Below are positions 2,521 through 58,103 of a DNA stretch of 64,000 nucleotides, piece by piece; the stretch's first letter is position 1, and every line of letters begins with the position of its first letter. Below the pieces are notes generated by a model. It saw nothing but the letters and a program-made list of their open reading frames with translations. It was not told the DNA's origin and did no database searches. Made by a program: the position numbers and the translations under genes. The DNA comes from Chrysophaeum taylorii (Eukaryota > Sar > Pelagophyceae > Pelagomonadales > Pelagomonadaceae). The DNA is taken from positions 289,066 through 353,065 of the forward strand of contig JAQMWT010000391.1 of the NCBI GenBank assembly GCA_029834535.1, written 5' to 3'.

Positions 2521-2588
2521 TGCCTGCCTGGCTCGCGGGCTTACCTGATCCTTACCCTAAATCGGGAGACAGACAGACAGACAAACAG

Positions 2589-3032
2589 CGCGGCGTGCCA
2601 CGCTCTCGCCCAAACATGCGCAGAGCGCATCGCTGCGCGAACCTGGGTGGCAAGCGGCTGCGCCAACTTCACAGAGGCAAAGGCGGCCCAAACTCGCCGC
2701 ATCTACCGTGAGTGGGGGGTCGCCAACGCATTAGGCCGGGCTCGCTGTGCCCTCACCGCCCTCACCCATGTCGCCGCCTCGGGGAACCCCACCCAGGCCG
2801 CCCGATCCCAGCAGGACGTCACCCTTCGTCGCACATACGTCCGGCGGCAGCATGCGTACGACCTACGGGCGGGGCCCGTCCTCTCTTCGCCTGCCCCACG
2901 CCTCGGCGATGACCCCGACTAGGTCCCGCGTACTTATCTCCGCCCGTCAGGCACATCCCTCAGACCCCACAAACCCACCCACATCCTTCATGCTCCCCCC
3001 ACACACCCCCCTCTTAGCAGTCGACATTTAAA
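2589..3032 (+). mobile_element. 5'-truncated LINE fragment (LINE copy 1)
   Basis: Carries the last ~110 codons of a LINE ORF (to the stop near 2922), a C-rich 3' UTR, and the family 3' end CAGTCGACATTTAAA, followed directly by GACAGACAAACAG. The same coding segment is found, longer, at 56955-58053 on the minus strand. The 5' junction also lies in a GACAGACAGACAAACAG tract, so the piece sits inside the microsatellite of Helitron-like copy A. Confidence 0.75.
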
Positions 3033-3274
3033 GACAGACAAACAGACAGACAAACATCTGTCGATTAGTAGTAAGGACTCAAAAAAGCTTAAAGGACGGA
3101 GGAGTCGAATGCGTTGATTAAAGCCGCTTAGATTATTGGCGGGGTGGAGCGCAAAGGGTTAGTGATTGGTGCGTAGTCTTAGAATTTGAAATCAAGGGGT
3201 AAGGCTTGCTCTAAGGGTAATAAGTAAGGGCATGACGGATGTAGCAAAAAAGACCAAAGGGATGCTGTATTGTC

Positions 3275-3442
3275 TTTAAATGTCGACTGCTAAGAGGGGG
3301 GTGTGTGTGGGGAGCATGAAGGATGTGGGTCGGTTTGTGGGGTATGAGGGATGTGCCCGAGGGGCGGAGATAAGTACGCGGGACCTAGTCGGGGACATCG
3401 CCGAGTCGTGGGGCAGGCGAAGAGAGGACGGGCCCCGCCCGT
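3275..3442 (-). mobile_element. 5'-truncated LINE fragment (LINE copy 2), inverted to copy 1
   Basis: Reverse-complement copy of the last ~168 bp of the LINE 3' region seen at 2868-3032, so the two form an inverted repeat around a ~240-bp centre. Read on the minus strand it ends ...CGACATTTAAA and is followed by GACA, as in other LINE copies. No matching target duplication was found at its 5' end. It lies just outside Helitron-like copy A. Confidence 0.7.
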
Positions 3443-3583
3443 CCCCTCGACAAGACGGTGGCGGGAGGTCTTAGGGGTAAACTCAAAGGTTGAGGGTAGA
3501 GCAGGCGCTGATAAAGCAGGTCAGATTGGCGGGGATCGGAGCGTCGAGCGGTAAGGAGAGCTGATTGTAGAGGACGACGCCGT

Positions 3584-3840
3584 AGGGTCGGATAAGAAAG
3601 TTCGTACGAGCCGTTAACTATGTCTCAGTTTGTACTAAGACATACTCAACGGATCGCTGAGCTATGTTCATTTGTACTCAAGCAGTATGTGCCGCCACGC
3701 CGCGAGATCGTCGCGATGGAATTAGTCCCCATAGTGAAGTCGGCATCCTTTCGTCCCCTCACGCAAAAAAAGGAAAAAGCCCACGCGTTGTAGGACCCGT
3801 CGTTGCGGCGCGGGCTAGTCTCGTTTTCTTATCCGACCCT
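3584..3840. mobile_element. MITE, copy 1 (257 bp, 16-bp terminal inverted repeats)
   Basis: Begins AGGGTCGGATAAGAAA and ends with its exact reverse complement. A near-identical 257-bp copy lies at 32956-33212. It has no coding capacity. No clear target duplication is visible at this copy beyond flanking TA bases. A non-autonomous DNA transposon fits the short length, perfect terminal inverted repeats and equal copy length. Confidence 0.85.
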
Positions 3841-3971
3841 ATTAATAATTGTCCGAGAAACCTACATTTGGGATTTTACAGCATTGTAGGCTGAACGTCA
3901 ATTAAGCGAAACGCGGCATGTATTGTTAGATTTAGGCGGAGGTTTGGGGGGAGTGTTAGGGGATACTGTGA

Positions 3972-5945
3972 ATGACGTCATCCATCCTCCATCCTCGGAC
4001 CCTAACGACGGCTGAGAGTGCAAGGAAGGACGTTAAGGGTAAGAGTGATGAAGGCACTATGAGCAAAGCCCTCGAAGATGACAGAGACGACGACGACAAA
4101 GACGCGCCCCAGAGCCCGGGACGATTTAGCGAGAGCGGCGACGGCAACAATGACGGGGACACCGCCACCGACTTGGATGCGGCGACCAACAACAAAACCG
4201 TCGAGGGGGGCGACGAGGAGGAGAAGAAGAAGAAGAAGAAGGAGACCATAACGAGAAAGACAACAAAGGCTGCGCCGGCGGCGCCTCAAATGGAACCGCG
4301 CGCACGGATTCCGGCGCCGCCAGGAAATATGATCGTGCTCACTCAGTTCGCAGGCCGCAGCATTGTTAAAAGCTATCGAGGGGAAGTGGATGGGCATCGC
4401 GTCGCGAACGATTTCGCGCGAAGGTCTCGACGTGGACACGGTGCTCACCCCCGACGGCGAGACCGGCGTGCACGCGCGTTCGTGTGCCGGCGTCCCCTAA
4501 AGCACCGCGCAGGTGTGCATCCGGTTCCAGGGCGACCGCGAGGACCCGTACTACGAACCAGTGCTGCGGTGCCTGCTCCGACACGGCGCTAGCCCTAACG
4601 TCAAGACGATGCGCGGCGCCACGCCAGCTCACTGCGCGGTAGGGGACATAGTTATTTTTTTTGCGTTGTTGTTGTTGTTGTTGTTGTCAAGGGTACTCTT
4701 CAGGCGAGCTACAATCTGACATCCGTCCTGAGCTTGCTCCACGAGTTTGGCGCCGACGTGGACGTCGAAGATAGAGAGGGCTACGCGCCGGCGCACATCT
4801 GCGCCGGGTGGGGCAAAACCGAGGCGCTCGAGTGGCTCCTCACCAAGGGGGGCGTCGGCGTGGAACGCGAGCACACCAACGGCATGTCGCTGGCGATGTT
4901 CGCCGCGACGGCCGGCCACCTCGACACGCTCAAATGCCTCAAGACGCTCGGCGCCAACCTCCGCAAGCCGTGCCGAATAGAACACGAGCTCATCCGGGGG
5001 CAACGCGTCATGGCCTCGGTGATGGCTATGGCGTTGTACGAGGGTCGCAACGACATCGCCGACTGGCTGGTGGCCGAGTGCGACATCGGCAAGCACGAGT
5101 CGGAGATCGTCGTGTGCTATTCGCCCGAGGACGAGGAGGCGGCCCTCGAGCGCGAGAGGTTGCTGTTCGACGCGCCCGACGAATCCACCTACTCGTCGTT
5201 CGGGTTTGCGGACGACGAAGAGGGCACGCCCGAAACCAAGGGCAAGTGGCCCGAGCCGCCGCGGAGTCCGCGCGTGGCCGCGGCGTGGCGCGACTTGGAC
5301 GAAAACGACGTCGTCGCCGACTGGCGAGAAGACAACTTTCCGGAGAAGATGCCGCCGCCGCCGCCGCCGCCGAGGCACGATTCCGACGAGCCGCCCCATC
5401 ACGATTACCCCTCGCCCGGCGGGGGCTTGGTCGACCGCGAAGACGCGAGTGAGGACGAGGATTCCGCTGCCGAGCGCGGCGCGTCGCCGCCGCGGCGCTA
5501 CGTTCCGCGCGTCGACGACACCATTTCCGACGACAAACCTGACGCCGCCTCCAAGCCGCCCGACCTCAGCTTGCCGCGCCGCATGCACCAGGTCTTTTCG
5601 CGCGTCGACTACGTGGGCCGCGACGACCTGCACGGCATGGCCGACACCGCGCAAGTGCGGGAGCCCGACGCGAGCTTGTTGAGCGCGACACACCCCGCAC
5701 TCTCCAGGGTTGACTACGTTGCTCGTGACGACGACCTCGATTCTCTCGACGACGTAGTCGACGACGACGACGACGACGAGCCCGCGGATGACTCCTCAGC
5801 GGCCAACACCACGGACGTACCGTGCCCGCCGCCTCCCAGTTCTCCGGTGGGAGACGCCGTCGTGCTGCCCGATGGCGAGGCGACGCCCATGGTGGAAGCG
5901 CCGGCGCCCGCCGTGCCCCCTGACCAGGACGATACTATCACGTGA
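3972..5945 (+). CDS. Ankyrin-repeat protein with acidic, disordered tails; short introns
   Basis: Ankyrin repeats are clear in 4513-5100: GATPAHCA, LLHEFGADVDVEDREGYAPAHICA and the following 'GHLDTLKCLKTLGAN' unit. The second of these spans an intron at 4639-4703 (65 nt, GTAGGG...TTCAG) that keeps phase 0 on both sides. A further intron at 4468-4512 (45 nt, GTGCAC...GCGCAG) removes an in-frame TAA at 4498. The N-terminal part (3972-4334) is Asp/Glu/Lys-rich with a poly-Lys run. Its join to the exon starting at 4354 is unresolved: a 19-nt gap would fix the frame, or translation may start at the ATG at 4390. The C-terminal ~280 residues are acidic and proline-rich with two similar 'SRVDYV.RDDL' motifs, likely disordered or docking. 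The role is probably protein-protein scaffolding; I recognise no catalytic domain. Confidence 0.75.
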
Positions 5946-6078
5946 TGCTTGCTTCTATTGAGGGCTGTTGTAATAAATAATAAATAAATAACCCTCCCGC
6001 GAGCGCGCCCCCTTTGTTCTCATTCCCGAACCCTCTTCCGCTCCCTTAGGGTTGACCTCCCAACCCTCCCGAGAAGAG

Positions 6079-6636
6079 ATGATGCTGATGCTGATGCTGG
6101 CGGTCGCCGCTGGCTTGCAAATCGCGTGGAGGCCGGGACAGGGGGGGCATCGACGAGGGGTGGCCGTAGAGATGGCGAAGAAAGGGAGGTTGAAGGAGCT
6201 GCGCGAGGCGTCGCGCGGAAAGAAAAATAAGAACCGGAAGAATCTCGTACGTGTACCCGGGATCAGTGCGCCGGCAGACGGCAAGCTGAAGGGCTGGGAG
6301 CTCGGAAACGAAAAGCGCGTGCGTCTGACCGCAGCGCGCGTAGGCCATAAGCTATACGCGATGGAGTCTTCGTGCAGCCGGTGCGGATGGGAGCTCGAAA
6401 AGGGATCCATCGTGGACGGATCCTCCGTTGCCTGCGCCCTCTGCGGCCAGTCCTACGCCCTCGCGACGGGGAAGCCGGGTGCGGTCGTCAACGAAAAAGG
6501 CTGGCTTGCCAATCTCGCTCGCAACGCCCCCACAACCAAGCCAGCGACGACGGCGAGGACGGTAAGCGCCGCCCTCCAGGGCGACGAAGTGTGGCTTGAC
6601 ATTTCTGGTTCCTCCCTTGCGCAGGACCTTGCGTGA
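6079..6636 (+). CDS. Rieske-like protein with a tetra-cysteine site, N-terminal targeting segment
   Basis: A 185-residue protein. Residues 1-18 are a hydrophobic, Met/Leu-rich signal-like segment, followed by a basic stretch (about 25-55) that could be a transit peptide. The core (about 75-135) has the order of a Rieske [2Fe-2S] domain, with the second loop CALCGQSYALATGKP matching the usual 'CPWHGWxFDLxTGxP'. The two expected His ligands are replaced, leaving Cys99, Cys102, Cys119 and Cys122. That pattern would suit a four-cysteine Fe-S or zinc site rather than a classical Rieske centre. The last bases hold GTAAGC (6562) and CCCTTGCGCAG (ending 6624), which could be a 63-nt in-frame intron, so the C-terminus may be 21 residues shorter. 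An earlier in-frame ATG at 6052 exists; 6079 is chosen because the signal segment starts there. A plastid location is inferred. Confidence 0.6.
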   Translation: MMLMLMLAVAAGLQIAWRPGQGGHRRGVAVEMAKKGRLKELREASRGKKNKNRKNLVRVPGISAPADGKLKGWELGNEKRVRLTAARVGHKLYAMESSCSRCGWELEKGSIVDGSSVACALCGQSYALATGKPGAVVNEKGWLANLARNAPTTKPATTARTVSAALQGDEVWLDISGSSLAQDLA

Positions 6637-6969
6637 TCCATTAATTATTACTGCGGCCTCGTCGACGAGGACGCGTGTTCCTTTTTTTGCAAGAGGAGGC
6701 GCGCCGCGCCGTGTGGTTACGAAAGGCTCGGAATCACGCCGGGAGGGAGGGAAATTATGCGAACAACGACGCCGCGATGCGTTGGCCCGCGACGCGGGCA
6801 ACGGTCGTCGTCGTCGAGCTGGTGTTTGGGCCATGCTGCGCCAAGAAACGAAACAAAAGTGTCTTTTATAGAGGTCATCATCACCAATGCGGCGGTCCCT
6901 GCGACGAGAAAAAATCGGCAGCTGATGGACATCCTCGCCGCTCGACGAGGACACTGCAGAAAAGACGAC

Positions 6970-7028
6970 GCTCAAATGCCGTCGAGCCGGAATTCGCGAG
7001 CTCAAATGCCGTCGAGCCGGAATTCGCG
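6970..7028. repeat. 30-bp tandem duplication
   Basis: The unit beginning GCTCAAATGCCGTCGAGCC occurs twice back to back with a period of 30 bp and is essentially identical in both copies. Confidence 0.9.
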
Positions 7029-7197
7029 CAGCGACGCGTCCCGATCACACTCCCTCCTCGTGCCGGCGACGTCCGCAGGCTTGATACTCCCACTCGAGCG
7101 CGTCGACGATGAGGAGAACGTCGTTCGGCGCCCCTTCCCCATTCCAGAAAAAAAAGACGGGTCCGCAGGTACGACTGGATGGACTCGCTTCCGCGCA

Positions 7198-7252
7198 GGA
7201 AGGAAGGAAGGAAGGAAGGAATCGCGCGGCGGCGGCGGCGGCGGCGGCGGCT
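7198..7252. repeat. (GAAG)n and (CGG)n simple repeats
   Basis: A run of GGAA/GAAG units from about 7198 is followed within 10 bp by a run of CGG triplets. Confidence 0.9.
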
Positions 7253-7266
7253 CATTAAAAGCCACC

Positions 7267-8721
7267 TTACGGCACCAACCGGTCATGATGTGCCCGAGCC
7301 TCTTCGGGCGTGGTAGGACCCGAACCACGGAAGGGCGCCTTGGTCTCTAAGACGGGGTCGAGAAGGCCGAACCTAAAGGGAAGGCCGAGGATGGCCTCGA
7401 GGGCGGCGGCCGCTTCGAGGAGGAGGGCGTCCTTGCCAGGGGCGGCGACGAGCTGGATGCCGACCGGGAGACCGTCGACGTCGCCGCAGGGGAGCACCAG
7501 GGCGGGGCAGCGGGTGATCGAAACGAGGGAGGTGGGGGCGAGCCACGCGCAATAATCCTCGAAAGGCGCATCCGCGAGAGTCGCGCCGTAGTGATGAACA
7601 GGGTAGCGAATGTTTTTGTCGAAGGGGAGGTCGAGCGTTGCCGGGGTGGCGAGGAGGTCAAAGTCGCGGAAGAAATCGTCGACGGCGGGCGATATTACGG
7701 TACGCGCGAGGCGACGCGCCTCGTCGGCGTCGCCCAGATCTGCCGCGCGAACGTTCCACTGAATCTCGGGCTTGAGTAGATGGTGGTCGGGGACTGCCTC
7801 GAACTTGACGGCAAATTTCTCAGCACGCAGCGCGTAGAAGCATCGTTTGGCCGTCGCGATCGGCCAAGGGTCGTCCTTCTCCGTCGCGGCGCCGCCGGCG
7901 AGCGCGTCGGCCGCGCGAGACGCGACGGCGACGAGGTCTTTGTGTACGGGACAGCCGAGCGTCGAGAAGGCCGTTCGAGTAAAGGTGGGTCTCCTCCGCG
8001 CGCCGCCTTCGGCGACGGCGCGCCACGACGTCGCTCGCGGCGCGATAGCGTCGAGGAAGAGACCGAGGTCCTGGACGTCGCGTGCCATGGGCCCGTCGAT
8101 CGAGTTGAGGTCAACGACGGGATCGAGGCCGCCCACGACCCCGGGCGTGGTGCGAAAGCCGCACACGCCGCAAAACGCCGCGGGCGTGCGCAGCGATCCC
8201 CCGAGGTCCGAACCGGTCGCGAGCCACGCCTGCCTGGACGCGAGGGCGGCCGCGGATCCGCCCGATGACCCCCCCGAGGTGCGGCGCACGTCGTAGGGAG
8301 TGCCCGTCGTCGGAAAGAGCCCGTTGAAGCACTGCGCGCCCGCGGCAAACTCGGGGACGTTCGTGAGGCCGCACGCGACGCCGCCGGCCGCCTCAAGGGC
8401 TTCCACGATCGGCGCGCTCGACGTCGCCACCCGGTCCTTGTACCCGACGAACCCCTCGGTGTGCGGCAGCCCCGCGACGGGTGTCGTCGCCTTGACGAGC
8501 ACGGGCAGCCCGCATAGCACCGACGAGGGCGACGCTTTGTGCCGCCGCGCGCGGTCGAAGCACTCGACGGGCGTCGACGCCACCACACTGTCGACGGCGG
8601 CCCGCCGCAGCGCGCACACCTCGACCAACTCCTCGACCGTCGTCCCGCCGGTGCGCAAGAGCTCGACGACCTCGCGCGCCGCAAGAGACGCGAGGCCCTC
8701 GTCTGGGGGTCGACGACGCAT
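7267..8721 (-). CDS. Amidase-signature family hydrolase
   Basis: A 484-residue protein with the full amidase signature: Lys77 in LPVLVKATTP, the Gly/Ser loop RRTSGGSSGGSAAALAS (cis-Ser 152/153) and the nucleophile Ser176 in TGSDLGGSLRTPA. This Ser-cisSer-Lys triad hydrolyses amide bonds; relatives include GatA, fatty-acid amide hydrolases and bacterial aliphatic amidases. The substrate cannot be told from sequence. The length is normal for the family. GatA is less likely because a GatA of a plastid or mitochondrion would carry a targeting sequence, which is not obvious, and the C-terminal half is divergent. The start is the ATG at 8721 (MRRRPPDEGL); the upstream open frame continues but lacks a better ATG and looks like leader. 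It is divergent from the gene at 9082. Confidence 0.85.
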   Translation of the reverse strand: MRRRPPDEGLASLAAREVVELLRTGGTTVEELVEVCALRRAAVDSVVASTPVECFDRARRHKASPSSVLCGLPVLVKATTPVAGLPHTEGFVGYKDRVATSSAPIVEALEAAGGVACGLTNVPEFAAGAQCFNGLFPTTGTPYDVRRTSGGSSGGSAAALASRQAWLATGSDLGGSLRTPAAFCGVCGFRTTPGVVGGLDPVVDLNSIDGPMARDVQDLGLFLDAIAPRATSWRAVAEGGARRRPTFTRTAFSTLGCPVHKDLVAVASRAADALAGGAATEKDDPWPIATAKRCFYALRAEKFAVKFEAVPDHHLLKPEIQWNVRAADLGDADEARRLARTVISPAVDDFFRDFDLLATPATLDLPFDKNIRYPVHHYGATLADAPFEDYCAWLAPTSLVSITRCPALVLPCGDVDGLPVGIQLVAAPGKDALLLEAAAALEAILGLPFRFGLLDPVLETKAPFRGSGPTTPEEARAHHDRLVP

Positions 8722-9081
8722 TGTAAGATGATCTGAAAGACCCTTCTTTTTTTTTCTTCTTTCTAGATCTTTCAATTCGTTTTTGTCGTCACGCATGGGA
8801 CGCACGTGGGTGGGAAAACGGATCTTTTTGGGAAGGTGCAGTTCTACGCAAGATTTTGTGGAGTGGGGCTTGCACCTGGCGCTCGCCGAAACCCAATACA
8901 TCTAGGCGCCTATAGCAATCACTGCAAGTTGCGTCCGCCAGAACAGTTTATTTGGCTGTTGCCGCAGGCCATGTACACAATCCCCAGTACACCAAAAGCT
9001 GCAGCTTTTGCATCGCGCGATCTATAGAAGCAGGACCGTTCCCCTCAAGACGGACATGGCGTCCATGTGTTGAGCTCGTCG
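8722..9081. promoter_or_regulatory. Divergent intergenic region between amidase and the 9082 gene
   Basis: A 360-bp gap between two start codons that point away from each other, so it must hold both promoters. It contains a pyrimidine-rich T run next to the amidase start. No TATA box is convincing. Confidence 0.4.
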
Positions 9082-12519: not shown

Positions 12520-13514
12520 TCCTAACTACTAATCGACAGATGTTTGTCTGTCTGTCTGTTTGTCTCTTTGTCTGTTTGTCCCTCGATTTAGGGTAAGGAT
12601 CAGGTAGGCGCGAGAGTAAGGATCAGGTAGGCGCGAGAGCCAGACAGTGATCCTCCAAACCGTCTACGGCGACCTCGCAGACTATTTCCACGACCCGCGG
12701 CGGCTCTTTCAGCGCGCCATTCTCACGCCCCGTCGAAACGATGTTGTCGATGCTGACAACGCGCGCATGACCGCGGCCTTTTTTTCCCGGAGACGAGGCG
12801 TCGGAGTTCTTTTCGGGAGACTAGGCTGGGTCGGAAGACGACGCCTCGCTCTTTACAGTAGAGTTTTCAACTCCCTGACAACCAACGGCATGCTGACTTT
12901 GATCGCGAGCTTAATGTCTTCGCAACCTCGACCCGTCGCACGGCCACTGCAACGGTACCAGATACATGATCGATCGTGTCGTTGTCACCGAGGCTCCTCC
13001 AACCTGTATCGCTTAAGGCCCGCCTACGCCAAACGATCAACAAGAGCCAGGGCGCAGACGCCCCGCGAGGTCGGCGTCCTCTTGCCCACAAGCCCGTCTT
13101 CTGTCACGTCCAGCTCTACGTGGCTCTCTGTCGATCGGCAACCCCGAGGAGATATGCTCTTCTGAGTCGACGACTCCACCCTACCCCACACGTGCTGCGC
13201 AATACCGATAAGCCCCCTCACGGCGTCTACACGCGCACTGTAGGTGAACTTACTGGGACCAGGTGGACTTACTGGGGTTGGAGATTGGGACTAGGTGAGC
13301 TGAGTGACCAGGTGAACTTATTGGGACCAGGTGAACTTACTGGGGTTATTAGAGTAAACTCAAGGGTTGGCGGCGCGTGCGGATTGGATTGGCGGGGGTG
13401 AGAGCGACGAGCTCGAAGGAGAGTGGGGTGAGTGGGTGTGAGCACGAGTGGGTTTACGCCGAACTTACTGGGGTTAGAGATTGGGACTAGGTGAACTTAC
13501 TGGCCTGCACTTGT
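12520..13514 (+). mobile_element. Helitron-like element, copy B (no insertion)
   Basis: The simplest copy (995 bp) and the reference for the family: TCCTAACTACTAATCGACAG, an uninterrupted TGTC/TGTT tract, CCCTCGATTTAGGG, a duplicated TAAGGATCAGGTAGGCGCGAGAG unit, the decayed helicase, the GGTGAACTTACTGG minisatellite and the end GGCCTGCACTTGT. Neither end is inverted relative to the other, and no target duplication is visible. The 5' TC start suits Helitrons; the 3' end lacks the classical CTRR, so a Helentron-type or derived end is likelier. Confidence 0.75.
12647..13165 (+). pseudogene. Decayed PIF1/Helitron helicase C-terminus in copy B
   Basis: Same segment and same order of frame changes as in copies A, C, D and E: RAILTPRRNDVVDADNAR in one frame, the CNGTR-type block in another and QTINKSQG in a third. 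This copy has an extra-base variant after the SQG block (SQGADAPRG). Shared lesions mean the copies descend from an already broken master. Confidence 0.75.
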
Positions 13515-29726: not shown

Positions 29727-30608
29727 TCACCATGCACCCTGCTCTGCCGGCACAGCCGTAAGCCACTTGTCCAAGTAGATGCAGTTGGTTGGGGAGACGA
29801 GGCCGTTTGGGGTACAGCGATCTCGGACCGGGCAGGTGCCGCAGGGCATTTGGGTGAGGGAGTTGAGCTCGGTGGCCGGCTTGGCGATTTTGTAGAGCAT
29901 CGATTTCGTGGCAGCTTTGCGCTGGTGGGCCTCGACCTCCTCGAGTTTGAGGTCGAAGACGAGCGAGTTGACGACGTATCTTACATCATCGAGCTCGAGC
30001 TTGACGGTGGAGATGCCGATCTTGCCGAGGGCGTCGGCGATTTCCTCGATGCCGACAGGCTGCATTTCGCCGACGAACTTGATGATGAACTTTTGCATGG
30101 CGTCGACAAAGCCCGAGTCGAACTCCTGGTCGGTGTACCAAGGTCCCCCGCTCACTTCCCGCGTAGGCTCGAGCTCGTACGCCATATAGAGCTTCTTCGT
30201 CTTTTGCTGCACGGACTTAACCGTCTTGACGAGCTTGCGCGCCTCGAGGACCTTCAGCGCCTTGTTCAACGTCTGCTGCTGCAGGTTTGTCGCATTCTTG
30301 ATGTCGCGCAGCCACACGCCCGTATTGCTCGCTTTTTGCACCACTTGGAGAACGAGCAACTGTTCGCTCGTCAACTCGCTCAATCGCTCGGCCTCCGCCT
30401 CGTCGCGGAGCTTGTACGTCAACCGATCCGTTCCCTCGACCTTGAAGAGCTCCATTCGATTCGCACCCAGTAATTCGTTTATGATCGGTGGCAGACACTT
30501 GAATTCCTCGCTCGAAAACCTCGCCTTGAGCTCGTCGTTCGACACCCCGTCTGCGCTATTCTTCATTATTGCGATAAACTCCTCTTTCACGCGCTTCGCG
30601 AGCGACAT
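29727..30608 (-). CDS. POLR3F: RNA polymerase III subunit RPC6 (RPC34/POLR3F)
   Basis: A 293-residue protein with the tandem winged-helix layout of RPC6. The first winged helix covers about 1-80 (MSLAKRVKEEF...KVEGTDRLTYKLRD); the second covers about 90-165 (QLLVLQVVQKASNTGVWLRDIKNAT...LQQQTLNKALKVLEARKLVKTVK). Next come the conserved GGPWYTDQEFDSGFVDAM segment and a C-terminal four-cysteine motif (MPCGTCPVRDRCTPNG...TNC) that in this family holds an iron-sulphur cluster. RPC6 sits in the RPC3-RPC6-RPC7 subcomplex that opens promoters at tRNA and 5S genes. Length is a little under the animal and yeast proteins. The start is the ATG at 30608; the open frame upstream runs into Helitron-like copy C, which ends 161 bp before the start. 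Confidence 0.95.
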   Translation of the reverse strand: MSLAKRVKEEFIAIMKNSADGVSNDELKARFSSEEFKCLPPIINELLGANRMELFKVEGTDRLTYKLRDEAEAERLSELTSEQLLVLQVVQKASNTGVWLRDIKNATNLQQQTLNKALKVLEARKLVKTVKSVQQKTKKLYMAYELEPTREVSGGPWYTDQEFDSGFVDAMQKFIIKFVGEMQPVGIEEIADALGKIGISTVKLELDDVRYVVNSLVFDLKLEEVEAHQRKAATKSMLYKIAKPATELNSLTQMPCGTCPVRDRCTPNGLVSPTNCIYLDKWLTAVPAEQGAW

Positions 30609-30769
30609 TGCTGTTTGTGCAGACCGGGCGCCCGCTTTTTCGAGACGACGCGAATGTCCGAGATATCGTTTACGGGGTAAGGATAGATAATTCGTTCCTT
30701 TCTGGTGGGCTGTTGATCTTGTTTGATCTCCGGAGCCCCGGCCTAAAGCCAACTGTGTATTAGAACAAC

Positions 30770-31832
30770 ACAAGTGCAGGCCAGTAAGTTCACCTAGTCC
30801 CAATCTCTAACCCCAGTAAGTTCACCTGGTCCCAGTAAGTTCACCTGGTTAGTAAGTTCACCTAGTCCAAATCTCTAACCCCAGTAAGTTCGGCGTAAAC
30901 CCACTCGTGCTCACACCACTCCTTCGAGCTCGTCGCTGTCGCCTCCGCCAATCTAAGCTGCTTCGATCCGCTTACGCCGCTAACCTTTCAGTTTACTCTA
31001 AAACCCCCAGTAAGTTCATCTGGTCCCAGTAAGTTCACCTGGTCACTATATTCACCTAATCCCAATCTCCAACCCCAGTAAATTCACCTGGTCCCAGCAA
31101 GTTCACCTATAGTGCGCGTGTAGACGCCGGGAGGGGGCTTATCGGTATTGCGCAGCACGTGTGGGGTAGGGTGGAGTCGTCGACTCAGAAGAGCATATCC
31201 TCGGGGTTGCCGATCGACAGAGAGCCACGTAGAGCTGGACGTGACAGAAGACGGGCTTGGGCAAGAGGACGCCGACCTCGCGGGGCGTCTGGCCCTGGCT
31301 CTTGGTGATCGTTTGGCGTCGGTGGGGCTTGAGGGATACAGGTTGGAGGAGCCTCGGTGACACGACACGATCGATCATGTATCTGGTACCGTTGCAGTGG
31401 CCGTGCGACGGGTCGAGGTTGCGAAGACATTAAGCTCGCGATCAAAGTCAGCATGCCGTTGGTTGTCAGGGAGTTGAAAACTCTACTGTAAAGAGCGAGG
31501 CGTCGTCTTCCGACCCAACCTAGTCGGCCGAAAAGAACTCCGACGCCTCGTCTTCGGGAAAAAAAGGCCGCGGTCATGCGCGCGTTGTCAGCATCGACAA
31601 CATCGTTTCGACGGGGCGTGAGAATGGCGCGCTGAAAGAGCCGCCGCGGGTCGTGGAAATAGTCTGCGAGGTCGCCGTAGACGGCTTGGAGGATCACTGT
31701 CTGGCTCTCGTGCCTACCTGATCCTTACTCTCGCGCCTACCTGATCCTTACCCTAAATCGAGGGACAAACAGACAAACAGACAAACAAACAAACAGACAG
31801 ACAGACAAACATCTGTCGATTAGTAGTTAGGA
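30770..31832 (-). mobile_element. Helitron-like element, copy C (first of a head-to-tail pair)
   Basis: Element-sense 5' end TCCTAACTACTAATCGACAG at 31832, 3' end GGCCTGCACTTGT at 30770. It has no LINE insertion: the tract reads GACA/AACA without a break on the plus strand (about 31764-31810). Its 5' end abuts the 3' end of copy D, sharing a single base. Confidence 0.8.
31139..31697 (-). pseudogene. Decayed PIF1/Helitron helicase C-terminus in copy C
   Basis: Same broken helicase segment as in copy A, with RAILTPRRNDVVDADNAR at its start and QTITKSQGQTPREVG near its end, in different frames. Confidence 0.75.
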
Positions 31833-32032
31833 CAAGTGCAGGCCAGTAAGTTCATCTAGTCCCAATCTCTAACCCCAGTAAGTTCACCTGGTCCCAGTAA
31901 GTTCACCTAGTCCCAATCTCTAACCCCAGTAAGTTCACCTGGTCCCAGTAAGTTCACCTGGTCCCAATCTCTAACCCCAGCAAATTCGGGGTAAACCCAA
32001 TCTCTAACCCCAGTAACTTCGGCGTAAACCCA

Positions 32033-32077
32033 CCCCCACAAACCCACCCACATCCTTCATGCTCCCCACACACCCAC
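32033..32077. mobile_element. Internal scrap of LINE 3' UTR inside the minisatellite of copy D
   Basis: About 45 bp matching the LINE 3' UTR (ACCCACCCACATCCTTCATG...) but lacking the LINE 3' end, replacing the part of the minisatellite where the other copies have a CACTCGTGCTCACACC segment. Short shared AAACCCAC sequence at the edges suggests template switching or gene conversion rather than insertion. Confidence 0.55.
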
Positions 32078-32286
32078 TCTCCTTTGAGCTCGTCGCTCTC
32101 ACCCCCGCCAATCAAGCTGCTTTGATCCGCACACGCCGCTAAGCTTTGAGTTTACTCTAACAGCCCCAGTAAGTTCACACTTGGTCTCAGTAAGTTCACC
32201 TGGTCACTAACTTCACCTTGTCCCAATCTCTAACCCCAGTAAGTTCACCTGGTTCCAGTAAGTTCACCTGGTCCCAGTAAGTTAAC

Positions 32287-32880
32287 CTATAGTGCGCGTG
32301 TAGACGCCGGGAGGGGTCTTATCGGTATTGCGCGGCACGTGTGGGGTAGGGTGGAGTCGTCGACCCAGAAGAGGATATCCTCGGGGTTGCCGATCGACAG
32401 AGAGCCACGTAGAGCTGGACGTGACAGAAGACGGGCTTGTGGGCAAGAGGACGCCGACCTCGCGGGGCGTCTGGCCCTGGCTCTTGTTGATCGTTTGGCG
32501 TAGGCGGGCCTTAAGGGATACAGGTTGGAGGAGCCTCGGTGACAACGACACGATCGATCATGTATCTGGTACCGTTGCAGTGGCCGTGCGACGGGTCGAG
32601 GTTGCGAAGACTTTAAGCTCGCGATCAAAGTCAGCATGCCGTTGGTTGTCAGGGAGTTGAAAACTCGACTGTAAAGAGCGAGGCGTCGGCTTCCGACCCA
32701 ACCTAGTCGGCCGAAAAGAACTCCGACGCCTCGTCTCCGGGAAAAAAAGGCCGCGGTCACGCGCGCGTTGTCAGCATCGACAACATCGTTTCGACGGGGC
32801 GTGAGAATGGCGCGCTGAAAGAGCCGCCGCGGGTCGTGGAAATAGTCTGAGAGGTCGCCGTAGACGGCTTTGAGGATCAA
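32287..32880 (-). pseudogene. Decayed PIF1/Helitron helicase C-terminus in copy D
   Basis: Same segment as in the other copies, with RAILTPRRNDVVDADNAR near its start and QTINKSQGQTPREVG in another frame. One extra-base variant is shared with copy B (TSPSSVTSS frame), which suggests B and D are closer to each other than to A and C. Confidence 0.75.
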
Positions 32881-32930
32881 TGCCTGGCTCGCGGGCCTAC
32901 CTGATCCTTACCCTAGATCGGGGGACAAAC

Positions 32931-33235
32931 TCCCCACACACACCCCCCTCTTAGCAGGGTCGGATAAGAAAGTTCGTACGAGCCGTTAACTATGTTTCAG
33001 TTTGTAATAAGACATACTCAACGGATCGCTGAGCTATGTTCATTTGTACTCAAGCAGTATGTGCCGCCACGCCGCGAGATCGTCGCGATGGAACTAGTCC
33101 CCATAGTGAAGTCGGCATCCTTTCGTCCCCTCACGCAAAAAGAGGAAAAAGCCCACGCGTTGTAGGACCCGTCGTTGCGGCGCGGGCTAGTCTCGTTTTC
33201 TTATCCGACCCTACTCTTAGCAGTCGACATTTAAA
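32931..33235 (+). mobile_element. 5'-truncated LINE fragment (LINE copy 3), split by MITE copy 2
   Basis: Only about 50 bp of LINE 3' end (TCCCCACACACACCCCCCTC...TTAGCAGTCGACATTTAAA), preceded by GGGGACAAAC and followed by GACAAACAGAC. The MITE at 32956-33212 interrupts it. Confidence 0.7.
32956..33212. mobile_element. MITE, copy 2 (257 bp)
   Basis: Same length and only a handful of base differences from copy 1 at 3584-3840, with the same AGGGTCGGATAAGAAA terminal inverted repeats. It lies inside LINE copy 3: CTCTTAGC precedes the element and is repeated one base after its end, so the target duplication is 8 bp (or 9 with one mismatch). That length suits hAT or Mutator-type transposases. Confidence 0.85.
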
Positions 33236-33246
33236 GACAAACAGAC

Positions 33247-33437
33247 CGGCGGCAGCATGCGTACGACCTACGGGCGGGGCCCGTCCTCTCTTCGCCTGCC
33301 CCACGCCTCGGCGATGACCCCGAATAGGTCCCGCGTACTTATCTCCGCCCGTCAGGCACATCCCTCATACCCCACAAACCCACCCACATCCTTCATGCTC
33401 CCCACACACACCCCCCTCTTAGCAGTCGACATTTAAA
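33247..33437 (+). mobile_element. 5'-truncated LINE fragment (LINE copy 4)
   Basis: Begins CGGCGGCAGCATGCGTACG (last ~30 codons of the LINE ORF) and ends CAGTCGACATTTAAA, then GACAAACAGACAAACAG. It is inserted into the GACA/AACA tail of LINE copy 3, in the same orientation, giving a LINE-LINE tandem. Confidence 0.7.
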
Positions 33438-33638
33438 GACAAACAGACAAACAGACAAACAGACAGACAGACAAACATCTGTCGATTAGTAGTAAGGACA
33501 ATCCAGGGGGGAGCACGGCGACGGAGCTTATCCGAATCCCAGATGGGGCCGGGACTTGAAACAGCCCGCTGTGGCTGCTATGTAAATTCTTAGGGCAAAT
33601 GCGGTGAGTGAGTGGGGCATCTGATTCGCAGACACGGA

Positions 33639-48247: not shown

Positions 48248-48330
48248 CAATATCGTTGAATTACGAACTTTTTCTTGCGGAGATTATCCGGAACCTTCGC
48301 CTTTTGATGGAATCCGACACCTGTTCGTTA

Positions 48331-48390
48331 ACCCACCCACATCCTTCATGCTTCCCACACACACCCCCCTCTTAGCAGTCGACATTTAAA
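48331..48390 (+). mobile_element. 60-bp 5'-truncated LINE insertion with a 15-bp target-site duplication (LINE copy 5)
   Basis: Carries only the last 60 bp of the LINE 3' UTR, ending CAGTCGACATTTAAA. It is flanked by perfect copies of GACACCTGTTCGTTA (48316-48330 and 48391-48405). Strong 5' truncation with a long target duplication is the signature of target-primed reverse transcription. The target again starts with GACA. Confidence 0.9.
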
Positions 48391-48423
48391 GACACCTGTT
48401 CGTTACCCGGACGGGCCGATGGG

Positions 48424-48577
48424 AAGGCGAAACGATCGCAGTGGGACGGGTTATGGCCGGGGGGACGCAGAATGAAAAGTTAACGACGAGATGGTTCTCA
48501 AAGGCGAAACGATCGCAGTGGGACGGGTTATGGCCGGGGGGACGCAGAATGAAAAGTTAACGACGAGATGGTTCTCA
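48424..48577. repeat. Perfect 77-bp tandem duplication
   Basis: The unit starting AAGGCGAAACGATCGCAGTG occurs twice (48424-48500 and 48501-48577) with no difference, so it is recent. It starts only 18 bp after the LINE insertion's target duplication. Confidence 0.95.
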
Positions 48578-52766: not shown

Positions 52767-53150
52767 TTATTCCTCCGGCTCGTCGAGGTTGAACGCGATA
52801 AGTTCGACGTCGTACGTGAGCGTAGCGTTGGGGGGAATTACCGGTAGGTAGCCCTCTGCCCCGAATGCAAGCGACGGCGGAACCGTGATCGTGGACATTT
52901 GACCCGCGCTCATCTTGGCGATGGCTTGCTCGAGGCCCGGGATAAGCTGACCGGCACCTATTTTGAAGAGCAAGGGTCGCGCGCGAGATCGCGACGAGTC
53001 AAAAAGTGTTCCATCGGCTAGGCGCGCCTCGTAGTGGATACGGCAAGTTGCGCCTGGTTGGGGGTAGTTTGTCGCATCTCCTGGCCTCGTCGTCTTGACG
53101 AGGACTTGATTCTTTTCGCGTTCACCGCCACCCTGTTGTCGGCGTGCCAT
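52767..53150 (-). CDS. FKBP-type peptidyl-prolyl isomerase
   Basis: A 127-residue single-domain FKBP. The family blocks are in order: CRIHYEARLADGTLFDSSRSR, LLFKIGAGQLIPGLEQAIAKM, GQMSTITVPPSLAFGAEGY and IPPNATLTYDVELIAF. Such enzymes isomerise Xaa-Pro bonds. The pocket Trp found in FKBP12 (the 'GWE' position) is Leu here, as in many plastid and divergent FKBPs, which may weaken FK506 binding. A basic N-terminus (MARRQQGGGEREKNQ) without a hydrophobic stretch suggests the cytosol or nucleus. The start codon lies 103 bp from the divergent AlkB-like gene. Confidence 0.95.
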   Translation of the reverse strand: MARRQQGGGEREKNQVLVKTTRPGDATNYPQPGATCRIHYEARLADGTLFDSSRSRARPLLFKIGAGQLIPGLEQAIAKMSAGQMSTITVPPSLAFGAEGYLPVIPPNATLTYDVELIAFNLDEPEE

Positions 53151-53253
53151 CGTTTCCGTGCGAAGGACGCATATGGGCGTTACTACTTTCCTATCGTTAC
53201 TATCCCTATCGCCCCCCCCTCAGTCGACCCCTGGCAGGTTATTAAGTCGGACG
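53151..53253. promoter_or_regulatory. Compact bidirectional promoter between FKBP and AlkB-like genes
   Basis: Only 103 bp separate the two start codons, so promoter elements must be shared or overlap. No TATA box is evident. Confidence 0.45.
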
Positions 53254-54447
53254 ATGTCTCGGCGCTTGTCTCATCGGTGCGTGACGGAGCCCGAGAAGTT
53301 AAAAATGAACCCCGGGGAGTTGAAGTCGATGTTCGAGAAGCGAGAGTGCCGTGTCGTTGCGTCGAAGATCGTGGTTCCGTCGGCAGAGGAGGTCAAGGAC
53401 GAGAGCAAGGTGTTCGTGACCTTGGATGCGGGGAATGTGGTTGGGCGCGTGCTCATAAACAACGCGCTCTCGACGGCAGAGGAGGAGAGGTTGATCGAGT
53501 GGGTGGAGAAGGAGCTGAACTCGGACCTGTGGCGCCAATACCAGGGGAGGGGGATCGATCCCGCGACTGGCAACAAGGAGGTGACCGCTTCGGGGACCGT
53601 CGAGCGCGTCGACGTGGCCGAGGTGGCGTACAAGCTCGAGGGCGAGGCAGACCTTCTCGCGCGGCTTTTTGATGATACGATGCCGTACGCGAAGATGGTG
53701 TTGGAGGTGCTGAGAGAACGCGTGCACGATATCCTCGACAAGGCCGACGCGCGCGAGGACGACGACGAGGACGCCGTCGCCAAGAACTCGCCGGTAACCA
53801 ACGGCACGATTTCTGACAAGGCGCTCGCTCACGACCGCGAAAGCGGCGGTCCTCTTTCGGCGTCGGAGCGCTTGGCGACTGTTCGCGAGTTCCTCCGCGA
53901 GCACTGGGATCGACCGGAAGCGCTGCAGGTGACAAAGTATTACGCCGACAAGGACTCTGGTTTGGCCCAGCACTTTGATAGCCGGGCGTGCTACGGCGCG
54001 ATCGCCACGGCGAGCCTGCGCCACCCGTGCACGCTCGTGATGCAGCGCAAGAATACCAAATTTTTTCAGGAATCGAGACTCTTGCTCCACCCTCGCTCGA
54101 TCTACGTGCTCACGGGACCGAGCCGGGGCGACTGTACCGACCCCGACGACACAACCCGCAACCACGCGCGCTGTCCATGCTGTTGGACTCACGGTATCCA
54201 GGCCATGGCCAAGGGCACCTTTTCCCACCGCTTCGACTGCTCCCCAGAGGCCAGGGCCCTCCGCCGTGTCGGCATCACCATCCGCTCCCTGACGCCGGGC
54301 GCCAAGGACCGAGCGCGACGGGAGTCGGGGATCCGGGGCGAGGGAAAGCGCCCCGTTGTCGTCGTCGACAGGGGACGTCCCTCGAGGGGGGAGGGGGGGA
54401 ACAAGACCCCCAACAAGCGCTGTCGGCGTTCGACTCTAAGAGGATGA
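53254..54447 (+). CDS. AlkB-like 2-oxoglutarate/Fe(II) dioxygenase
   Basis: A 397-residue intronless protein. The double-stranded beta-helix core is in the second half: LQVTKYYADKDSGLAQHFDS gives the metal-binding HxD (His-Phe-Asp), followed by ATASLRHPCTLVMQR and RSIYVLTGPSRGD. The distal His is probably in KGTFSHRFD, and the 2-oxoglutarate Arg in RRVGITIRSLTPG. This order matches AlkB-family dealkylases that remove methyl groups from nucleic acids or proteins. An N-terminal 'GRVLINNALSTAEEERLIEWVEKEL' segment matches the usual AlkB entry helix. A long acidic insertion (REDDDEDAVAKN...) and a Cys-rich loop (DCTDPDD...CPCCWTHG) are unusual. The basic tail suits nucleic acid binding. The start is the ATG at 53254; 53305 is possible. 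Confidence 0.85.
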   Translation: MSRRLSHRCVTEPEKLKMNPGELKSMFEKRECRVVASKIVVPSAEEVKDESKVFVTLDAGNVVGRVLINNALSTAEEERLIEWVEKELNSDLWRQYQGRGIDPATGNKEVTASGTVERVDVAEVAYKLEGEADLLARLFDDTMPYAKMVLEVLRERVHDILDKADAREDDDEDAVAKNSPVTNGTISDKALAHDRESGGPLSASERLATVREFLREHWDRPEALQVTKYYADKDSGLAQHFDSRACYGAIATASLRHPCTLVMQRKNTKFFQESRLLLHPRSIYVLTGPSRGDCTDPDDTTRNHARCPCCWTHGIQAMAKGTFSHRFDCSPEARALRRVGITIRSLTPGAKDRARRESGIRGEGKRPVVVVDRGRPSRGEGGNKTPNKRCRRSTLRG

Positions 54448-54506
54448 TGATAAAGGTTGGTTACCCTAGCGTTCTTGTAAAGTGTGGGGAACCAGAAGCA
54501 TCGTTG

Positions 54507-55816
54507 ATGAACGCACGAACGACGTTGTGGAGCCTGCCGAACACGGCGTTCGGGATCGGGATGGGCGTGGGCGGGAACGCCATATTGTGGCGAACGATTT
54601 CGGACACGCGGTTCACGGACAAGGTGTTGGGGCACGAGGGAAATTGGGCATTCTGGGTTGTGGGCCTCGCCATATGGTGCGTGTTGCTGGTGCTCCTCGT
54701 TGCGAAGGTTGTTTGCTATCCGCGGTTCGCGTCTCGCGAATGGCATCATCCGACGCGGTGCTACTTCTTCTTCGCGCCGCACCTCGCGCTTGTCATGCTC
54801 GCAATCGCGACGCCGGCGTCGCTCGAGACCCGGCTTCGCGCCGCGCGCACTTCCGCCTGGCTCGTCTCGTGCGTACTCCAGGTCGGCCTCGCCCTCGTCG
54901 TCTACACGCGATGGATGTTCAGTCCCGTCGACGGGGATGTCGGTCACGCGAGCCCGCCGTACCTCCTCTCGACCGTTGGGTGGCCGCTCCTGTGCGTGCT
55001 CGCGCAGATACTAGACCTCGAACGTCGCTGGAATTTCGACCTCCCTTCGTGCCTCTTTGGGATCGGCGCCGTCTGGTACGCTCTCGCCTTCATCGCGATC
55101 ATGCACACCATGCACGAGCATCAGCACAACAAGGGCGCGCCCGTCTTGTTTCTCATCGTTGCCCCGCCGAGCGTGATGGCCGTCGCGCTCGCCAACTTCA
55201 ACGATGGCGCCTTCGGTCGCGCCTCGAGCGCGGTTTTCGGCTTTTGCGTCTTCATGCTCCTCCTGCTCTTGCGACTCGGACCCAAGCTCCTCGCTAGGCC
55301 CGAAACCCTCGGCGTGTGCGCCTATCGTCGTTCGTCGTCGCACGTTGGTTTCGCCGCAGGTATTGGGCCTACGTCTTTCCGCTCGCCGCTCTCGCGACCG
55401 CCTCGATCCGGTTCGCGAGCACCTACGACACCCAGGTCGCGCGGATCCTCGCGTGGATCCTCGTGGGCGTCTCCACGGCCGCCATCATCACAGTCAGCTG
55501 CCGCATGTCAGTTCACATCTACGCCGTCGCGACGGGACGCGCCTTCTGGAACGACCCTCTCATGGACCGCGCCCTCGACGCCGCCGCCGCTTCCTCCTCG
55601 GGGAAGCCGAGACGATGCGACGGTTTAATCTTCTTTCGCTCGCCCTGCGCGTGCCTTTTCGTCGCTGCATCGTCTCTCCGCGGGCGCGCAGCTTCGTCCG
55701 AGAAGGAGGAGAACCACGCTAGCATTTTAGAAGATAAGATCGTCGTGCCCCATGATCCCACGAAGGACGACGACTCTCCTCCCACACCCGCAGGGTGGAG
55801 TACGTGCCTTGCGTAA
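54507..55816 (+). CDS. SLAC1/TDT-family anion channel-like membrane protein, one short intron
   Basis: Two exons, 54507-55315 and 55360-55816, joined by a 44-nt intron (GTGCGC...GCCGCAG) with phase 2, giving about 420 residues. Helices: a first one with NTAFGIGMGVGGNAILW, then roughly nine more to IAWILVGVSTAAIITVS. PVLFLIVAPPSVMAVALANFND and, across the splice, YWAYVFPLAALATASIRFA resemble the conserved core of the tellurite-resistance/dicarboxylate (TDT) family to which guard-cell SLAC1 belongs. It would carry chloride, nitrate or malate across a membrane; substrate is inferred. The C-terminal ~85 residues are hydrophilic. The frame is open back to ATGs at 54444/54447, overlapping the AlkB-like stop; I chose 54507 as the first Met next to the helices. 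Confidence 0.75.
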
Positions 55817-55959
55817 TAAATAAAGAAATAAATAGATAAATAACTTCTTGAAGAAGAGGAAGCAAGAGAAGACAATGCCTCTATTTTCACGCGGCAGCGC
55901 TTCCATTCAACGCAGGGATAACACTATTATGAATTTTTTGTTGCCCGACCACCACGATG

Positions 55960-56706
55960 TTACTTCCCAGCCGGCACCAGGAGGTCATTGTTCTTCTTGT
56001 TGGCGCCGATCTGAGAAATCTTCTTGACGAGGTTACCGATGAACTGCAAGATACGAAATTGGATAGACGGTTTGTAGGGCTGGCACTCGGGGATGGGAAG
56101 GGCGTTACCGGTGCCCCACAAATAGCCGAAAGCGCCCCCGAGACCTCCCGTGTTTCCCTGGCGTCGATCGATGACGTAAAAGCCGAGCTCCTTGACCTTG
56201 CCTTCCTCGTTGATGTCGAGGTGAAAGCACTGCGGGGGGAGTATAAGTCGTTTGTTGGTAGGTTTCTTGCCCATGATGGGGCCGGTGTTGGTCCCCGTGG
56301 ACCTAGAGTGAAACCAGACGCGGTAGGGCTCGAAAGGATCGACGCGAAACAAATGAAACTGTGGCATGATGTCCGGGAAGGCAACCTCTAGATCGAAAGT
56401 GGACAGCGCTTCAAGGTACTCGTCCTTGCCGATGGGTCCGACAAACGCAGCCACGAACTCGAAGTCGTCGGCCAAGCACGCACCGTCGTCTTTCGTGCCG
56501 ATGCCCGCCTTGAGAGCCTCCTTCGCCTTGGCCAGCACCGTCTCCGGCGACAGGGGGAACGACGACTGGGCGAAGAGTGCCTTCTCGTCGATCTCCGTCT
56601 GCCACGTCGAGCTGCGTCGCTCGAAGGTGTCGGCGCGGTGGTGCCGCTGGGCGACCTGCTGGAACGCGAGCGCGGCGGGCAAGACGGCAAGTACCACGTT
56701 GGCCAT
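55960..56706 (-). CDS. Plastid-targeted SnoaL/NTF2-like protein of unknown function
   Basis: A 248-residue protein. The N-terminus MANVVLAVLPAALAFQQ is a signal peptide ending in an ALAF-type site with Phe at +1, the mark of bipartite plastid precursors in heterokont and cryptophyte-type algae. The mature part has LADDFEFVAAFVGPIGKDEYLEAL, then 'RVWFHSRSTGTNTGPIMGKKPTNKRLILPP' and FHLDINEEGKVKELGFYVIDR, the layout of SnoaL/NTF2-like alpha+beta barrels. The C-terminus ends with a helical amphipathic stretch, IQFRILQFIGNLVKKI. NTF2-like domains bind small ligands; I cannot say which. The start is the ATG at 56706; an upstream in-frame extension to 56763 would hide the signal peptide. It is the best single clue to the organism's type. 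Confidence 0.7.
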   Translation of the reverse strand: MANVVLAVLPAALAFQQVAQRHHRADTFERRSSTWQTEIDEKALFAQSSFPLSPETVLAKAKEALKAGIGTKDDGACLADDFEFVAAFVGPIGKDEYLEALSTFDLEVAFPDIMPQFHLFRVDPFEPYRVWFHSRSTGTNTGPIMGKKPTNKRLILPPQCFHLDINEEGKVKELGFYVIDRRQGNTGGLGGAFGYLWGTGNALPIPECQPYKPSIQFRILQFIGNLVKKISQIGANKKNNDLLVPAGK

Positions 56707-56842
56707 TTCTTTCTTTGACGTGGACTGTGTCACGTCACGTATTAAAACAAGGGGAAATCGCAATTAGGGCAAGGGCGGATTAGTTAGATCCGACTATTCC
56801 TAACTACTAATCGACAGATGTTTGTTTGTTTGTCTGTCTGTC

Positions 56843-58053
56843 TTTAAATGTCGACTGTTAAGAGGGGGGGGTGTGTGTGGGGAGCATGAAGGATGTGGGT
56901 GGGTTTGTGGGGTAGGAGGGATGTGCCTGACGGGCGGAGATAAGTACGCGGGACCTAGTCGGGGTCATCGCCGAGGCGTGGGGCAGGCGAAGAGAGGACG
57001 GGCCCCGCCCGTAGGTCGTACGCATGCTGCCGCCGGACGTATGTGCGACGAAGGGTGACGTCCTGCTGGGATCGGGCGGCCTGGGCGGGGTTCCCCGAGG
57101 CGGCGACATGGGTGAGGGCGGTGAGGGCACAGCGAGCCCGGCCTAATGCGTTGGCGATCCCCCACTCACGGTAGATGCGGCGAGTTTGGGCCGCCTTTGC
57201 CTCTGTGAAGTTGGCGCAGCCGCTTGTCACCCAGGTTCGCGCAGCGATGCGCTCTGCGCATGTTTGGGCGAGAGCGTGGCACGCCGCGCTGGCCTCACCG
57301 AAGGCACCAAAGACGAGGCCGGCGACGGTGCCGTAGCTACGTAGCCGCTGTTCGACAGGGCCCAAGAAGCCAGGCGGTGGTGCTGTACCCGGCTGGGGGA
57401 TGATGGCGTCGATGCCGCGGGCGTGAGCGAGGTATTCGGAGTGGACTTGCGCTGCGCGCCGATCGACAGGCGACGGGTGGGAGGGATGGAGGGCGTGGGC
57501 GGTGTACAACGAACCCCAAGCGAGGGTTTTGATATCGTAGAGTTGCTCCTTGTTGTCGAGCGTGGTGAGGATGTCTGGGACGACTTGACGTCGGGCGAGA
57601 TTGCCTCGGTACCGGCCGTAGAGGCGCGTGCGAATGGTAGGGGCGACGACGTCAGCAAAGATGCCGAAAACCTCGGACAGGGCTGGGATGCCGGCCTCTT
57701 TGACGCTGCCGTGGACGCAGTCGAGCTGGCCGTCATGCCAGGTGGTCCGCGCTCCTCCGCGGTTGACAAGGTTGGCCTGCGTGAGAAGCACCTTGCCGTG
57801 AGCGTCGAGAACGACGTCAGTGCCCAGAATGCGAGTGCCCACGAGGCCCAAACAAGCTGGAGAGGGGTAGCCAAAGTACTGGGCACACATCTCAGCCCAG
57901 CAGCGGTTGGGGATTTGAAGGCCAGAGCTGGGCCACGAGCTGATGAACGTGGTCGAGAAGCGATCCCATGAGGACGCCGCTACTCGAAGTGCTTCGGTGA
58001 TGGGAAGGGTGGCCGCAAGGCGCTGGAGTGCAGTGGCCCGAGCTGTCTCGCGC
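56843..58053 (-). mobile_element. 5'-truncated LINE (LINE copy 6), longest piece in the window
   Basis: On the minus strand it ends CAGTCGACATTTAAA... (with one base change, TTAACAGTCGAC) and is followed by GACAGACAGACAAACA. About 1.2 kb long, with most of an ORF C-terminus. The 5' cut lies at about 58053 next to TTGTCTGTCTGTC. Confidence 0.8.
56955..58053 (-). pseudogene. LINE ORF C-terminal part with candidate PD-(D/E)XK nuclease
   Basis: An open frame of about 366 codons with no start of its own (the frame is open to the truncation point). It reads through 'LPITEALRVAASSWDRFSTT', WFG-like EMCAQYFGYPSP, HGKVLLTQANLVNRGG and then GRYRGNLARRQVVPDILTT with QLYDIKTLAWGSLYT. The spacing VPD...YDIKT matches the PD-(D/E)XK nuclease core, in the place where CRE/R2/NeSL-type LINEs have their restriction-like endonuclease. 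After this come PVDRRAAQVHSEYLAHA and a helical C-terminus. Reverse transcriptase itself would be upstream and is not in the window. LINE placement follows from the insertion features; the nuclease call is by eye. Confidence 0.65.
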
Positions 58054-58066
58054 TTGTCTGTCTGTC

Positions 58067-58103
58067 TTTAAATGTCGACTGCTAAGAGGGGGGGGTGTGT
58101 GTG
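58067..58103 (-). mobile_element. Very short LINE 3' fragment (LINE copy 7)
   Basis: TTTAAATGTCGACTGCTAAG followed by a G run and GTGTGTGTG: the last ~37 bp of the LINE in reverse complement, next to TTGTCTGTCTGTC. It lies beside copy 6 in the same orientation. Confidence 0.65.

Follow-up and report, generated by a model that had tools for sequence, protein, structure and literature searches.

The 64,000-nucleotide (nt) stretch of contig JAQMWT010000391.1 of Chrysophaeum taylorii analyzed here (hereafter, the window) carries pieces of a long interspersed nuclear element (LINE) which most likely is a GACA-targeting retrotransposon lacking long terminal repeats (non-LTR), equipped with a reverse transcriptase (RT) and a restriction-like endonuclease, and using the (GACA/AACA)n tract of a Helitron-like repeat as a platform. 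Directly visible in the sequence are the GACA at the junctions, the GACA in the target-site duplications, the choice of GACA over AACA, the stacking of copies and their 5' truncation. The 15-base 3' end of the element, CAGTCGACATTTAAA, was found exactly seven times in the window, compared to 0.04 expected by shuffling, and GACA directly followed its TTTAAA in all seven copies. An initial annotation of the window had described seven LINE pieces sharing this 3' end, with GACA at every 3' junction, including the first bases of a 15-bp duplication around the copy at 48331, and our reading agreed with it on both counts.

GACA at junctions and in duplications

The proposal that GACA is enriched after TTTAAA was examined by means of a genome count covering 70.8 Mb in 697 contigs. 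The 15-base end had 2564 exact copies, and GACA came next in 2264 of them (88.3%), against a background GACA frequency of 0.43% of window positions per strand. Exact GACA was missing in eight of the first 100 copies listed, all of which were fetched. These eight junctions read GACG (twice), GACT (twice), GACC, GCCA, AACA and GACA behind an extra A, every one at most one change from GACA. Most of them would be altered GACA sites, although at locus L074 GACG was probably the original target, since it is itself duplicated. In a set of loci enriched in long and clustered copies, GACA was present at 54 of 56 distinct junctions.

A GACA that follows 88% of the copies, together with three junctions bearing an extra GACA or GA, could also be accounted for if the element itself simply terminated in these four bases (3' end TTTAAAGACA) and targets were random. 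The evidence bearing on this came from target-site duplications. The 129 distinct 3' junctions collected from the window and the fetched loci comprised 69 tract-like ones and 60 others, the latter with many copies at a lone GACA and including 14 in loci chosen for GACAT. From these 60, we curated 26 duplications of 7–16 bp in DNA other than the LINE, the Helitron-like repeat or a long tract, leaving out 13 rows whose duplication lay inside one of these; the 26 include L119, recognized by eye, with one mismatch and seven filler bases, and the partly nested L020 and L084. The 5' copy of the duplication, which is outside the element, started with GACA at 22 of the 26 sites, and GACA is therefore part of the target. 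Further, the duplications GACACCTGTTCGTTA (window) and GACATAGAAAGAGC (contig C340) were perfect at both ends. The case that the initial annotation had named as fatal to its claim, a GACA transcribed from the element's own tail with varied targets, thus fails; the tail as the only source of GACA was ruled out by the 5' copies, and we regard random targeting as very improbable. Sequence-specific targeting of GACA, as originally suggested, is instead supported by both the genome count and the duplications.

Sixteen of the curated duplications came from lists that were not restricted to GACA, and 13 of these started with GACA (rough chance tail of approximately 1e-28 at 0.43% per site), even though they over-represent non-GACA copies, all eight of the first 100 having been taken and the GACA ones only partly. 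The other ten were found via GACA or GACAT on the 3' side, and their 5' copy would be unbiased if RNA alone supplied the GACA. Positions +2/+3 were A/C in 26/26 sites, +1 was G in 23/26 and +4 was A in 22/26. No fixed base was observed before the nick, where A was slightly over-represented at -3 (14/26) and A or T at -1 (21/26).

Window copies, tracts and stacking

The features of the window that are relevant here, with their strand, are the following.

1590..3078, plus: Helitron-like repeat copy A with LINE insertion
2589..3032, plus: LINE piece, 5'-truncated, within the copy A tract, ending in CAGTCGACATTTAAA, then GACAGACAAACA
3275..3442, minus: 5'-truncated LINE piece outside a tract, then GACAATACAG
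12520..13514, minus: Helitron-like repeat copy B, tract without LINE
12541..12580, minus: (GACA/AACA)n tract of copy B, without LINE
30770..31832, plus: Helitron-like (HINE-like) repeat copy C, ~1063 bp, tract without LINE
31764..31811, plus: (GACA/AACA)n tract of copy C, uninterrupted
31832..33499, plus: Helitron-like repeat copy D, head-to-tail with C, two LINE insertions
32931..32956, plus: left part (26 bp) of a LINE piece within the copy D tract, cut by an inverted-repeat element
32957..33213, plus: 257-bp element with terminal inverted repeats, nested in this LINE piece, with CTCTTAGCA at 32948-32956 and 33214-33222
33214..33235, plus: right part (22 bp) of the LINE piece within the copy D tract, starting with the 9-bp repeat CTCTTAGCA
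33247..33437, plus: second LINE piece in copy D, in tandem with the first
48316..48330, plus: target-site duplication, 5' copy, GACACCTGTTCGTTA
48331..48390, plus: 60-bp LINE insertion outside a tract
48391..48405, plus: target-site duplication, 3' copy, GACACCTGTTCGTTA
56798..59101, minus: Helitron-like repeat copy E, two LINE insertions
56843..58053, minus: LINE piece of 1.2 kb within the copy E tract
56955..58067, minus: 370-aa open frame, C-terminal part of the LINE protein, with a PD-X12-D-x-K motif
58067..58103, minus: 37-bp LINE piece in copy E, in tandem with the 56843..58053 piece

As initially annotated, five of the seven pieces lie in (GACA/AACA)n tracts of repeat copies A, D and E, tandems of LINE on LINE are present in D (32931-33235 with 33247-33437) and E (56843-58053 with 58067-58103), and the tracts of B and C are free of LINE. 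The segment 32931-33235 is indeed LINE, but not the single piece that had been assumed, as it consists of bits of 26 and 22 bp, with 9 bp repeated, around the 257-bp inverted-repeat element. The duplication around the 48331 copy is perfect over its 15 bp and has GACA at its start; for the 3275-3442 copy, with GACA at its 3' side outside a tract, no duplication was found by script.

The landing repeat spans from ACAAGTGCAGGCC to (GACA/AACA)n ACATCTGTCGATTAGTAGTWAGGA, approximately 1063 bp in copy C, and its end has 2549 exact copies in the genome. It is found in head-to-tail arrays on contigs C1, C5 and C7, where many steps among the 100 listed measure 1.0–1.07 kb, in a satellite-like manner. 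It resembles a Helentron or HINE. HINEs carry microsatellites, in oysters GTCY tracts, according to passages of PMC4067079 and PMC7492417. Like DINE-1 and the oyster Cg_HINE, the 1.06 kb repeat is short and abundant, has internal tandem repeats, occurs in arrays and bears a tetranucleotide tract near one end that is of the GTCY type when read on the other strand. Helentrons and HINEs are further defined by a T-rich target, a 3' hairpin and subterminal inverted repeats. Inverted repeats of at least 14 bases within window positions 30600-33600 amounted to three pairs, one formed by the nested element's own arms and two linking the repeat to a LINE piece. Helitron Rep domains gave 40 matches in the genome. 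The initial annotation had cast this family as a landing platform: a frequent platform it is, but not the sole landing place, given that a lone GACA suffices.

Within the tracts, the first unit after the element was GACA in 66 and AACA in one of the 67 junctions with at least three NACA units after them, which are not all independent because tract copies are often clustered. In the same junctions, units 2–8 comprised 140 GACA vs. 163 AACA, so that GACA made up 46% of the later units, and interior tract units alone comprised 95 GACA and 102 AACA. Taken alone, this bias towards GACA could equally reflect a first GACA supplied by RNA. As in a microsatellite LINE, most insertions occurred at one repeat unit in fixed phase and orientation (66/67 in tracts; 2264/2564 in the genome).

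Three nested insertions were located exactly at an older TTTAAA|GACA junction (L001, L043 and L097), that in L043 with a 17-bp duplication, GACAGACAGACTCGTCA; they fit the tandems in copies D and E. Another repeat family, which contains GACATCATACC, was struck at one and the same GACA in two or more of its members: the insertions in L086 and L113, of 669 and 37 bp, share GACATCATACC as their target, and L114 has a similar 3' flank, its 5' side lying beyond what was fetched. The 38 copies with a readable 5' end among L071–L100 had a median insert of 72 bp and a shortest of 15 bp, the latter being the limit of the search pattern and the former leaning short, since copies whose 5' end fell outside the short fetched stretches were omitted. 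A fixed 3' end, variable 5' truncation and target-site duplications together correspond to the insertion pattern of a LINE.

Repeated insertion had to be weighed against recombination, slippage or rolling-circle amplification of LINE-bearing repeats as the source of most tract copies. The ~1 kb head-to-tail arrays of the Helitron-like repeat would be compatible with amplification, as would loci L017 and L018 (contigs C25 and C521), which are near-identical, perhaps haplotypes, and differ by one 110-bp LINE unit in the tract. We discarded this pair as an example of an empty and a filled site, as recombination accounts for the difference equally well. However, truncation points varied among the copies read, and non-tract sites obeyed the same GACA rule, which amplification does not explain. 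Moreover, filled tracts coexist side by side with the LINE-free tracts of copies B and C in the window, which supports targeted insertion and speaks against amplification. An origin of most tract copies by amplification therefore appears improbable.

Long copy and protein motifs

The initial annotation had called for a full-length element and its RT. As a candidate for the former, a 4371-bp copy (L069, contig C526:76000-83000) was found between GACAGAAG repeats with a 1396-aa frame. The RT match turned out to be weak: RVT_1 matched with an E-value of 0.0029 and 17.8 bits, spanning the domain (profile positions 8-193 of 205). The motifs GGQQGDP and MDDG are present in the protein. LINEs with a restriction-like endonuclease show a C-terminal PD-X12-14-D spacing. 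The 1396-aa frame has PD-X12-D-x-K at residue 1190, within its last 210 residues, and thus carries the C-terminal motif of these LINEs, in a region that matched no Pfam family. Passages of PMC4640811 assign the nuclease of such LINEs to the PD-(D/E)xK type. We consider it very probable that the element has one protein only, combining a diverged reverse transcriptase with a restriction-like endonuclease at the C terminus. With the 370-aa C-terminal frame as query, the best of 112 scored genome matches were 99–100% identical to the window copy, from which we infer that the family was recently active.

In the genome scan with RVT_1, 150 of 611 candidates were scored. The strong matches were considered as possible members of the family and set aside: a YADD frame occurs in many of those that were read, and tblastn with the LINE protein gave no match to them. 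Profile comparison with eight strong RVT_1 matches and three RTs of contig C696 revealed nothing significant. This contig (58 kb) held eight of the listed RVT_1 matches and may represent an organelle genome carrying group II introns. A search for relatives in viral contigs gave one pattern match and none confirmed, and no part of the window matched Rfam at the gathering scores.

Proposed mechanism and related elements

We propose that the strand opposite GACA is nicked by the endonuclease immediately past ...TGTC, and that the freed 3' end would prime reverse transcription from the TTTAAA end of the element, whose RNA probably has GACA just beyond. Copying would usually be given up after a few tens of bases, and the second strand would be cut 7–16 bases off, leaving a GACA-starting duplication around the insert. 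GACA would be kept intact past TTTAAA, providing a fresh landing site at each 3' junction, and because it persists there, copies would stack head-to-tail, all oriented alike. With its many GACA units, the tract close to one end of the abundant 1.06 kb Helitron-like repeat would act as a platform. What we infer in this scheme is which strand receives the first nick, the assignment of the nuclease, how the RNA ends and any benefit from the platform.

Several observations weigh against it. Four of the 26 curated duplications start otherwise, namely with AACT in L049 (AACTAACTAACTT), GACG in L074 (GACGTATGG), CACC in L079 (CACCCGAAGAGCTT) and AACT in L100b (AACTTCCCTTTATAGA). No duplication was found in 17 of the 60 non-tract rows, in four of which the 5' side fell outside the fetched stretch, and in another four it was only 6 bp. 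The RVT_1 score of 17.8 bits is below the Pfam cut-off of 29.6, the full-length frame had no Pfam match, and a PDB sequence search with the LINE protein found no match, R2 included. Finally, some tandem copies may have arisen by recombination, as perhaps the 110-bp difference between L017 and L018.

Three junctions carried letters that, judged from the 5' side, the target did not supply: in L098 an additional GACA separates TTTAAA from the duplication, in L100b AACTTC is preceded by an additional GACA, and in L079 CACCC by an additional GA. For this reason, the template RNA probably extends beyond TTTAAA and ends in GACA, in L100b in GACAAAC, as a tract would give. The same letters would be expected if a nuclease of low specificity were combined with GACA-tailed RNA, the element's own or read through from a tract, that extends only those nicks with which it pairs. 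This would agree with L100b, where a GTT primer could pair with AAC of the GACAAAC tail, and RNA could also explain the choice of GACA over AACA in tracts. However, the upstream GACA of the element, within GTCGACATTT, was almost unused, with 1 + 1 copies of the two junctions searched vs. 2264, and was rejected as a start of copying; in L049, TTTAAA was joined straight to the target AACTAACT with no GACA, so that GACA pairing is not always needed; and AC occupied +2/+3 even at non-GACA sites. Targeting by RNA pairing is in our view rather unlikely. Since L049 lacks GACA and the internal GACA is hardly used, recognition by the nuclease is in our view the principal key, which pairing of RNA to the nicked strand may assist. 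A structured RNA 3' end was discarded, as the folding of the final 115 nt was poorer than that of most shuffled versions (z 1.60; 196/200 at least as stable).

We tentatively put forward, as a possibility somewhat short of an even chance, that targeting is double-keyed, the endonuclease reading GAC and the transcripts of tract copies running into GACA and pairing with the nicked strand, in which case insertion would be self-propagating and copies would stack. If so, the microsatellite of one transposon would be a renewable home for another, both keys being kept at TTTAAA|GACA.

LINEs with a restriction-like endonuclease that prefer microsatellites are already known, some HERO families and Togen ((TG)n) being named as inserting in simple repeats in passages of PMC4640811. 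The GACA-targeting LINE is similar in combining a restriction-like-endonuclease motif with insertions in simple repeats. Dong has TAA as its target. In contrast to HERO, Togen and Dong, the unit here is GACA, a lone GACA outside a tract is also used, and GACA is told from AACA. In R2, RNA running into the target can pair with the nicked strand, an optional step that sharpens the start, according to passages of PMC10499050. Target priming at a nick is shared with R2 elements of 28S ribosomal DNA (rDNA), but R2 reads an upstream motif via N-terminal DNA-binding domains, whereas the GACA LINE is constrained only at about four bases at the nick. A literature search of titles and abstract openings found no GACA-specific LINE. 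The present LINE differs from those already known in its four-base target, its mostly very short insertions and its tandem stacking at its own junction; that such a target is legible in thousands of natural junctions, and that the microsatellite of another transposon is used as a home that renews itself, is unusual.

Target reading by LINEs with a restriction-like endonuclease is understood in only a handful of cases, chiefly R2, whose rDNA target is long. Many of the thousands of natural junctions available here combine a short insert with an intact duplication; together they could yield the site preference at single-base level, the AACA units next to GACA serving as an internal control. For the study of LINEs as insertion tools, a four-base target without a fixed upstream base would also be of interest, and the microsatellite of one transposon would serve as a regular, self-renewing home of another.

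Other repeats were also observed in the window. The inverted-repeat element (GGGTCGGATAAGAAA...) has two copies that are 98% identical, at 32957-33213 and 3584-3841, and a 77-bp perfect tandem duplication (48424-48577) lies just downstream of the 48331 LINE insertion. A remnant of a copia-like LTR element, with gag_pre-integrs and SH3_retrovirus matches, is located at 61092-62663.

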